From assembly GCA_016213945.1 (NCBI GenBank), contig JACQZF010000036.1, forward strand, positions 1 to 60,356: a stretch of 60,356 nucleotides of DNA. The letters run 5' to 3'. The notes beneath the pieces are model-generated. The model saw only the letters and a program-made list of their open reading frames with translations. It made no database searches and had not been told where the DNA came from. Positions within the stretch are counted from its first letter, which is position 1, and the number at the start of each line of letters is the position of its first letter. This stretch comes from Nitrospirota bacterium. GTDB lineage: Bacteria; Nitrospirota; Thermodesulfovibrionia; UBA6902. The translations under genes and the position numbers were made by a program. Of the stretch, positions 53,102-55,315 are shown in pieces.

Positions 53102-53474
53102 AAACAACCTCCTCTCCGTAAAACTGTAAAACTATTGAATGCCGCAAATGAAAACACTGCCCCTTTTTTAAAATTAGAATACTATATCAAATTTCTCCTC
53201 ATTGTACAAACAAAAAATATTATATATTGAAGCAAGATTGATACCAGTAAAGTCAGTGTCCTCAATTTTTAAAAATGGTTATACTTAACATAGTTACGAA
53301 GATCAATGTTTTCTTATTAGCACTACATAGTTCAATTTTTTGACTGTAGTGTATGTATAAGTATACTGTTCACCGGCATGGCTAATGAAAGTGGGGCAGG
53401 TTAAAACCGCGGCCGGGGAATGATATGACTTATCTCATTGTTTGAGGCTGTCTATATTTTTTATCATTAAAGAC
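53102..53474. other. 373-base divergent gap, no gene seen
   Basis: AT-rich sequence between the lytic transglycosylase and the YwiC-like gene. Short AT-rich stretches near 53190-53230 and 53275-53300 could hold promoters in both directions, but none meets a usable -35/-10 match. No repeat family seen elsewhere in the window is present. Confidence 0.5.
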
Positions 53475-54194
53475 ATGAAAGTTCCGGTTGTTAAAGAATG
53501 GGGTTCATGGGCGGTGTTCTTCTCATCCGTTCTCGCCGGTCTTATCTCAGGCTTGTTAACAAAGCCATGGTTGACAGGGAGGGAATCCGGAAGTAAAACC
53601 GCGCTTACTGTTCTGGGTCTGACACTTCTGATAAACTCCAAAAATCCTCTAACCTCAGCATTGAGGGCAAAAGAAAAAAGAGAGCACATTTTATGGTTTT
53701 CGTTTTTCGCTCTTACAGGGTTTGCGTTACTGGTCCCTTTTTTGATTGAAGGGCTAAAGACGTTCCTGGTTTTTTCATTGCTGATAGCAAGCTACGCAAT
53801 TCTTCTGTCGAGCGGGAAGGAGCATCATATAGTTACAGAGCTGAATGGATTTGCCCTGTTGACCATCGCCGCGCCGGTTGTTTATTTTGCAATGACCGGA
53901 GAGATGTCATGGAAACTGTACCTCGCTGTCACAATGTTTTTTGCGGCAGGCGTTTTCAAGGTGCGGGTAAGGATCAGGAAGACGCCATTTTTCAGATGGC
54001 TGATGATATTTCATTGCGCTGCCGCAGTTAGTGTCTTTTATCTTTTGGACATCTCTACACTTCTCCTGTTACCTCTCATCGAAAATATAGCGACCGCTGT
54101 CTGGCTGAGGGAGGAAAAACTCAGGACCACAGGCAATATAGAATTAACCAAGGCAATTATCTTTATCGTTCTTATGGGGTTTTTCTGGCGTTAA
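53475..54194 (+). CDS. YwiC-like membrane protein
   Basis: 239 residues from this start, mostly hydrophobic with about seven to eight membrane helices. The N terminus KEWGSWAVFFSSVLAGL resembles the HGaWamll-type start of the YwiC family. A charged loop (ALRAKEKREHILW) and a C-terminal LWREE-like KLR loop are visible. Function of the family is unknown; it has been noted near nitrate/respiratory genes in Bacillus. An in-frame TTG at 53442 is possible, but has no ribosome site. Confidence 0.7.
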   Translation: MKVPVVKEWGSWAVFFSSVLAGLISGLLTKPWLTGRESGSKTALTVLGLTLLINSKNPLTSALRAKEKREHILWFSFFALTGFALLVPFLIEGLKTFLVFSLLIASYAILLSSGKEHHIVTELNGFALLTIAAPVVYFAMTGEMSWKLYLAVTMFFAAGVFKVRVRIRKTPFFRWLMIFHCAAAVSVFYLLDISTLLLLPLIENIATAVWLREEKLRTTGNIELTKAIIFIVLMGFFWR

Positions 54195-54260: not shown

Positions 54261-55202
54261 ATGGCGCAGATACTGGACGGCAGGAAGCTTTCTGAAAAGA
54301 TCAAAGACAAGGTAAAAGCCGATGTTGCAAAGCTTGGCCAATACGGAATTGAAGTGGGGCTTGGTTTGCTACTTGTCGGCGATAATCCAGCTTCAAAACA
54401 GTACTTGAATGCAACTCTCCATGCCTGTGTAAAACCCGGCATCAAAGCACACCAGTTCAAACTTCCTGACAATGTTTCAATAAACGAGGTCCTCAATTTG
54501 GTACATTCAATCAACAAAGATGAAAGGATAAACGGCCTCCTAATGTTTCTCCCTCTTCCAAAAAGAATAAACGCCCGGAGGGTCATTAATGAAATTGCCC
54601 CTGACAAAGACATCGACGGACTCGGTTCGCTTTCAATAGGGAGACTGGCCGCGGATGAATCCACGTTCCAAATATTTAAACAGGGTGATTATGAATCGTT
54701 ATATTCCGGGGAATTCATTCCGGCGGTATCGAGCTATCTGCCTTGCACTCCATTCGGGGTAATAAGACTGCTTGAACACTACGGTGTAGAAATAAAGGGG
54801 AAACATGCCGTGGTTGTAGGGAAGAGCCTTGCCGTGGGAAAACCTCTTTCACTTATGCTTCTTGTAAAAGAGGCAACGGTCACGGTTTGTCACAGGGAGA
54901 CAAAAGACCTGAAATATTTTATCCGGCAGGCGGATATCATTTGCTCGGCCACTGGGATAAAGGGGTTGATAAAAGAGGACATGGTCAAAGACGGCGCGGT
55001 TGTTGTAGATATCGGGATCAATGTACTTGAAGACGGGACCATCGTCGGCGACGTTGATTTTGCAGCAGTCGAAAAAAAAGCGTCTTTTATAACACCTGTT
55101 CCAGGCGGGGTCGGCCCGGTGACAATTGCAATGCTGCTTGAGAACACCGTCCGTTCCGCACAAAAAGGCCACTACATGAAGCATCCGCTTATAATAGGTT
55201 GA
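54261..55202 (+). CDS. folD: FolD-family methylenetetrahydrofolate dehydrogenase paralogue missing cyclohydrolase residues
   Basis: 313 residues, longer than the usual ~285. The family layout is clear: LLVGDNPASKQY, KDIDGLGSLSIGRLAAD, PCTPFGVIRLLEHY, VVVGKSLAVGKPLSLMLL and VPGGVGPVTIAMLLENT. But the catalytic Lys of YxxxK is Thr52 (Y48-L-N-A-T52), and the Gln in the GLLMxLPLP motif is Phe96. Those two residues are needed for cyclohydrolase action in bifunctional enzymes, so this may be a dehydrogenase only. An extra loop of ~20 residues (about 135-155) precedes PCTPFG. Symbol is for the family, not the activity. Confidence 0.85.
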   Translation: MAQILDGRKLSEKIKDKVKADVAKLGQYGIEVGLGLLLVGDNPASKQYLNATLHACVKPGIKAHQFKLPDNVSINEVLNLVHSINKDERINGLLMFLPLPKRINARRVINEIAPDKDIDGLGSLSIGRLAADESTFQIFKQGDYESLYSGEFIPAVSSYLPCTPFGVIRLLEHYGVEIKGKHAVVVGKSLAVGKPLSLMLLVKEATVTVCHRETKDLKYFIRQADIICSATGIKGLIKEDMVKDGAVVVDIGINVLEDGTIVGDVDFAAVEKKASFITPVPGGVGPVTIAMLLENTVRSAQKGHYMKHPLIIG

Positions 55203-55282: not shown

Positions 55283-55315
55283 TAAAAAAACCCTCCTGCA
55301 TAGCAGGAGGGTTTG
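55283..55315 (-). terminator. intrinsic terminator of the cold-shock gene
   Basis: Read on the minus strand: AAACCCTCCTGC, short TAT loop, GCAGGAGGGTTTTTTT. A 12-pair stem with a T-tract on the minus side, ending the cold-shock gene; it may also act against read-through from the folD-like gene. Confidence 0.9.

Follow-up and report, generated by a model that had tools for sequence, protein, structure and literature searches.

FolD is usually taken to be a bifunctional enzyme, methylene-tetrahydrofolate (H4F) dehydrogenase and cyclohydrolase in one chain, and an annotation at the level of Pfam would name the product of folD2 likewise. This gene lies in the window, a Nitrospirota contig stretch of 60,356 nucleotides. 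A preliminary description of the locus had placed Thr52 and Phe96 at two positions that are Lys and Gln in the cyclohydrolase site of bifunctional FolD. The question raised by the gene is whether a FolD with these residues still has both activities. The gene, its domains, the two codons and the local setting are as follows.

54261 to 55202, + strand: folD2, predicted monofunctional methylene-tetrahydrofolate dehydrogenase, 313 aa (open reading frame, Pfam, clade signature, structural model)
54273 to 54617, + strand: N-terminal catalytic domain, PF00763 (Pfam)
54708 to 55166, + strand: C-terminal NAD(P)-binding domain, PF02882 (Pfam)
54414 to 54416, + strand: codon ACT for Thr52, the Lys of YxxxK in bifunctional FolD (alignment)
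54546 to 54548, + strand: codon TTT for Phe96, Gln in bifunctional FolD (alignment)
53442 to 54194, + strand: upstream open reading frame, YwiC-like by a weak match, 66 bp ahead of folD2
55291 to 55311, no strand assigned: terminator-like inverted repeat of 9 bp and then a T-rich run (sequence reading)

The folD2 reading frame starts with ATG and ends with TGA. Its product matches PF00763 at 108.6 bits over residues 5-119 and then PF02882 at 215 bits over residues 150-302, both above the Pfam cut-off and in the order that defines the FolD/MTHFD superfamily. An AlphaFold2 model of the protein (pLDDT 88.5, pTM 0.87) has the FolD fold. FolD2 falls under the curated NCBIfam FolD cut-off for all 25 families listed of the 30 that match, with a best score among those listed of 337 bits against a cut-off of 423. 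Among the FolD2 loci compared, at most two have the YwiC-like upstream neighbor. The terminator-like repeat separates folD2 from a convergent trpD.

Alignment to other FolDs bore out the placement of Thr52 at the Lys of YxxxK and of Phe96 at the Gln preceding LPLP. The alignments were gap-free at both sites, and no Lys or Gln was found at a shifted position. FolD2 retains Tyr48 of YxxxK and the pterin-binding Asp119. It thus has the tyrosine and aspartate of a bifunctional FolD and lacks the catalytic lysine and the glutamine before LPLP, which is the Mtd1-type combination of dehydrogenase residues present and cyclohydrolase pair gone. Among 88 distinct relatives from 101 loci, position 52 is Thr in 65 and Ile in 23, position 96 is Leu in 62, Phe in 25 and Ile in one, and Tyr48 and Asp119 are each present in all 88. 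A larger set of 194 loci gave 193 hits and, once duplicates and short or broken proteins had been removed, 128 distinct proteins of at least 200 residues without internal stops. Ninety-three of these combine Thr or Ile with Leu, Phe or Ile, 35 are Nitrospirota FolDs with Lys and Gln, and none is mixed. Since there are no intermediates between these two groups, the substitution pattern is far beyond chance. The FolD2 clade has lost the Lys/Gln pair in 93/93 proteins and kept Tyr48 and Asp119 in 93/93. Within it the Phe of the window's protein is a minority state at position 96, where Leu is commoner, and about a quarter of the clade has Ile rather than Thr at position 52.

The roles of these residues are described for other FolDs. 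PMC3338484 describes the lysine as the acid/base in hydrolysis, positioned by the glutamine, and the aspartate as holding the pterin. PMC5688156 gives undetectable cyclohydrolase and about 19% dehydrogenase activity for E. coli FolD K54N, and about 1% cyclohydrolase and about 8% dehydrogenase activity for Q98H. PMC6443876 and PMC3368264 also ascribe to this lysine and glutamine a contribution to hydride transfer. Both E. coli mutants lose most of their dehydrogenase activity, which implies that FolD2 is either slow or has made up for the loss. Because the tested folate and cofactor residues are kept and exactly the Lys/Gln pair is lost, the best reading, and one that we consider likely, is that FolD2 is a methylene-H4F dehydrogenase without cyclohydrolase activity, with hydrolysis left to a second FolD.

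We infer the activities, cofactor and physiological role of FolD2 as follows. Tyr48 and Asp119 would hold the folate and the Rossmann domain would hold the dinucleotide, probably NADP(H), allowing FolD2 to interconvert CH2-H4F and CH+-H4F. Without the acid/base lysine and the placing glutamine, it would carry out no hydrolysis to 10-formyl-H4F, and methenyl-H4F would be hydrolyzed by the second, Lys/Gln FolD or spontaneously. A cofactor unlike that of the other FolD, or independent regulation, is a possible reason for having FolD2.

Features that mark the clade were computed on the 93 FolD2 proteins versus 25 short Lys/Gln FolDs. They map to the window as follows.

54651 to 54734, + strand: loop peculiar to the clade, about residues 131-158, in which E133 and Q137 are conserved (alignment; partly low-confidence in the model)
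54822 to 54824, + strand: Lys188 codon, in the GKSLAVG cofactor motif (alignment)
54894 to 54896, + strand: Arg212 codon (alignment)

In 92/93 FolD2 proteins the stretch 130-159 spans 20-38 residues (8 in the remaining one), versus 7-9 in Lys/Gln FolDs, and it contains Glu133 in 93/93 and Gln137 in 92/93. Position 188 is Lys in all 93 FolD2 proteins and Arg in 24/25 of the short Lys/Gln FolDs; position 212 is Arg or Lys in 92/93 and in 0/25, respectively. FolD2 has GKSLAVG where Lys/Gln FolDs have GRSxIVG, and the PCTP, GKSxxVG and PVPGGVGP motifs are retained. The basic residues at 188 and 212 of the cofactor site favor NADP(H) as the probable cofactor.

A full FolD2 copy occurs in 21 of 61 genomes, these being the window's own and 60 relatives, and the copies of the 20 other genomes are 57-81% identical to the window's protein. 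One relative, G006, has an additional 43-residue FolD2 fragment, and another, G057, has two FolD2 copies on contigs C10 and C77 (L047, L050) plus a Lys/Gln FolD. In a scan of named genomes, the informative titles among the best 80 of 524 loci encoding a relative were all Nitrospirota, while a few other titles read only 'bacterium'; FolD2 may thus also occur outside the phylum. Among 295 genomes sampled from the phylum, a full FolD2 match above 420 bits was found in 65, and in 67 when G282, whose copy is frame-split, and G301, whose copy is partial in the scan and was fetched as L193 (286 aa), are included. The carriers are members of the window's own class, apart from 12 that belong to family f25 of another class; no FolD2 match above 420 bits in this sample came from families f29 and f30. 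FolD2 spans one class and one family of another class, not the whole phylum Nitrospirota.

A tree of 52 rows was built from 29 FolD2 proteins, 13 Nitrospirota Lys/Gln FolDs, both thinned by identity from larger sets, and 10 rows taken from plasmid-collection records as the outgroup, leaving out the 447-aa FolD type described below, the two trait columns and the loop. FolD2 forms a single clade (100/100) with the Lys/Gln FolD of G053 as its sister (90/89) and is nested within a set of short Nitrospirota FolDs (100/97); two Nitrospirota Lys/Gln rows group with the outgroup. Lysine loss on this tree amounts to three changes, in FolD2, in Fusobacterium and in Acetoanaerobium. Comparison of folD2 with two same-genus orthologues gave dN 0.107 / dS 2.1 and dN 0.143 / dS 2.3, with dS saturated; two further comparisons yielded no usable dS. 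The gene is under strong purifying selection, and FolD2 is an old, strictly kept feature of one Nitrospirota branch. Its single origin would be a duplication of a bifunctional FolD within Nitrospirota followed by such selection.

It had been reasoned from the two substitutions that the cell would need another cyclohydrolase, either a second FolD or an FchA-type enzyme. The former was found. The second FolD, on contig C32, keeps Lys and Gln, passes NCBIfam PRK14168 (547 vs 501 bits), and adjoins open reading frames for 5-FCL, folE and metV; these names, and metF below, are readings of translations. The latter was absent from the same genome (FchA type, PF04961), as was a Mch-type cyclohydrolase (PF02289). 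We read the sequence in each FolD2 genome and found a Lys/Gln FolD separate from FolD2 in 19/21, the window's included, and no other FolD in G001 (89% complete) and G054 (95% complete). Genes for FTCD_C (FchA type) and for Mch were each found in 0/61 genomes, and both were rejected as the partner of FolD2. The window's own genome has one Fhs plus ACS/CdhC. Since Fhs occurs in 58/61 genomes and CdhC in 52/61, these are mostly Wood-Ljungdahl bacteria.

Membership of FolD2 in the Wood-Ljungdahl gene cluster was considered and rejected. In the six clusters read, the slot next to a folE-like gene and before a metV-like gene is held by Lys/Gln FolDs: a short one in L145, L148 and L184, the 447-aa FolD in L136 and L137 (with folE between), and the PRK14168 type in L001, from the window's own genome. 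Nor does FolD2 track CdhC, which is found in 16/21 FolD2 genomes vs 36/40 others (p 0.25). The neighbors of FolD2 vary, and most are unrelated to C1 metabolism by reading.

An operon-like run that includes FolD2 was seen at L066:406-13622, from 'Bacterium BMS3Bbin05', and may encode a bacterial coenzyme M pathway. It carries genes for MtaA/CmuA-type methyltransferases, an MtrH-like protein, a corrinoid protein, an AcsV-like activator, DUF6951, and NarI-like and HdrD/TfrB-like proteins, together with cysteate synthase and the alpha and beta subunits of sulfopyruvate decarboxylase, all of the latter above cut-off. We rejected FolD2 as a coenzyme M pathway enzyme in general: such a context is found for only 9/93 genes, and across the 61 genomes, 14 of which have cysteate synthase above cut-off, there is no association (7/21 FolD2 genomes vs 7/40 others, p 0.21).

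These results bear on other readings of FolD2. One is that it is still bifunctional, with Glu133 or Gln137 of the new loop, or water, serving as the acid/base. Glu133 is invariant and Gln137 nearly so, and only the FolD2 clade has a long loop here, which speaks for this. However, positions 52 and 96 now hold Thr or Ile and Leu, Phe or Ile, and the single changes in E. coli FolD nearly or fully abolish cyclohydrolase activity. The loop itself connects the two domains, and the model places its outer part with low confidence. We regard a retained cyclohydrolase as improbable. Loss of all activity, with FolD2 a decaying copy or regulatory remnant, would agree with the loss of two catalytic residues, but the strong purifying selection, the retained cofactor motifs and the persistence of one FolD2 clade in its own class and in one family outside it make this very improbable.

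There is also little chance that FolD2 acts on another substrate, whether another C1 carrier or a corrinoid/coenzyme M methyl-transfer step. Each of the nine distinct FolD2 genes with the context above is accompanied, in what looks like an operon, by genes for an AcsV-like activator and an HdrD/TfrB-like protein; in L066, the run that was fully annotated, the methyltransferase, corrinoid-protein and coenzyme M genes are present as well. Against this, the other 84/93 FolD2 genes, the window's included, have no corrinoid or HdrD-like context, the window's own genome has no cysteate synthase above cut-off, Mch is missing from all 61 genomes, and FolD2 retains the Tyr and Asp that bind folate. Since H4F is the known carrier for bacterial modules of the MtrH/CmuA type, these runs fit a dehydrogenase-only FolD2 as well.

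Nitrospirota genomes contain further FolD types, which are located in the loci retrieved as follows.

L146, 2898 to 3755, + strand: FolD3; Tyr, Lys, Gln and Asp kept, cofactor motif broken
L147, 2320 to 3174, + strand: FolD3; Tyr, Lys, Gln and Asp kept, cofactor motif broken
L153, 2725 to 3414, + strand: FolD3, cut; Tyr, Lys, Gln and Asp kept, cofactor motif broken
L185, 2846 to 3703, - strand: FolD3; Tyr, Lys, Gln and Asp kept, cofactor motif broken
L134, 2532 to 3875, + strand: 447-449-aa FolD; Lys and Gln kept
L136, 2719 to 4065, + strand: 447-449-aa FolD; Lys and Gln kept
L137, 2897 to 4243, - strand: 447-449-aa FolD; Lys and Gln kept

In genomes belonging to the window's family, the ordinary FolD is replaced by the divergent 447-449-aa FolD. 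The latter adjoins folE-, metV- and metF-like open reading frames and is far under all NCBIfam FolD cut-offs among the matches listed.

FolD3 is a clade (100/100, three of the four members being in the tree). In its cofactor site GRSxIVGKP has become ERSN-TGRT, EGSS-TGRS or ERNN-SGKS, one residue shorter, and the His of CHS is lost in the three aligned members. All four genes are close to dsrB, which is above cut-off in L146, L147 and L153 and truncated at the contig edge in L185; near FolD3 there is also a dsrA-like gene below cut-off in L146 and a DsrC/TusE gene above cut-off in L147. FolD3 may have cyclohydrolase activity alone, or no enzymatic role, and be linked to sulfite reductase. Among the papers listed in a literature search, none dealt with FolD3 beside sulfite reductase genes. 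In two genomes, G047 and G050, FolD2 and FolD3 coexist with an ordinary Lys/Gln FolD, and the window's own genome has FolD2 and one Lys/Gln FolD only. Where three FolD types share a genome, production and consumption of methenyl-H4F could fall to different enzymes, each under its own regulation. A tentative and rather doubtful extension is that Nitrospirota FolD was split by repeated duplication into a dehydrogenase-only FolD2 and, in some relatives, a FolD3 that keeps Lys and Gln with a broken cofactor motif.

Among the known enzymes closest to FolD2 are bifunctional FolDs. Campylobacter jejuni FolD (3p2o) matches the FolD2 model with Z 39.4 and an rmsd of 1.7 over 282 residues at 49% identity. 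This enzyme and E. coli FolD (1b0a) share with FolD2 both Pfam domains, the folate-site Tyr and Asp, PCTP and PVPGGVGP; FolD2 differs from them in lacking Lys and Gln, in its 20-38-residue loop and GKSLAVG, and in falling under the NCBIfam cut-offs listed. The yeast enzyme Mtd1 is an NAD-dependent methylene-H4F dehydrogenase without cyclohydrolase and has Thr and Tyr at the two cyclohydrolase positions. Its structure (1edz) matches the FolD2 model with Z 31.1 and an rmsd of 2.3 over 277 residues at 23% identity, and ranks below 38 of the 39 other FolD/MTHFD entries among the matches listed. The preliminary description had proposed a convergent loss in the two proteins. The resemblance does look independent, since the change in FolD2 lies on one branch inside bacterial FolD and 1edz is structurally so distant; the distance of Mtd1, which is absent from the tree, comes from the structure match alone and speaks against common descent. 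The length of about 320 residues common to both proteins, also remarked upon, has no meaning, as the extra length of FolD2 is the inter-domain loop. The two also differ in that Mtd1 uses NAD and FolD2 would probably use NADP(H).

Other bacteria offer partial parallels. Peptostreptococcus productus has a single-activity methylene-H4F dehydrogenase, cited as NADP-dependent in PMC6443876; we liken it to FolD2 by this description, as bacterial and single-activity. Single-activity methylene-H4F dehydrogenases are already known, from yeast, whose Mtd1 appears among the references of PMC6443876, and from P. productus. The FolDs of Acetoanaerobium noterae (L200, A/F) and Fusobacterium vincentii (L198, Q/N) are changed at the same two positions as FolD2 and lie outside the FolD2 clade in the tree. 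The Fusobacterium record has one FTCD_C-family (FchA-type) match, the Acetoanaerobium record has two, and a Prevotella record, whose FolD has Lys and Gln, has none. These three records give no more than a hint that loss of the Lys/Gln pair goes with FTCD_C genes; in most FolD2 genomes, by contrast, a Lys/Gln FolD is retained. No paper listed in the literature searches deals with a FolD paralogue of Nitrospirota. The apparent novelty is an old clade of bacterial paralogues that stands beside a Lys/Gln FolD and is unpaired with FchA. If FolD2 is a dehydrogenase only, an old bacterial paralogue stripped of one activity beside a normal copy would be a clean natural case of subfunctionalization, and models of one-carbon flux would change for Nitrospirota with the Wood-Ljungdahl pathway.
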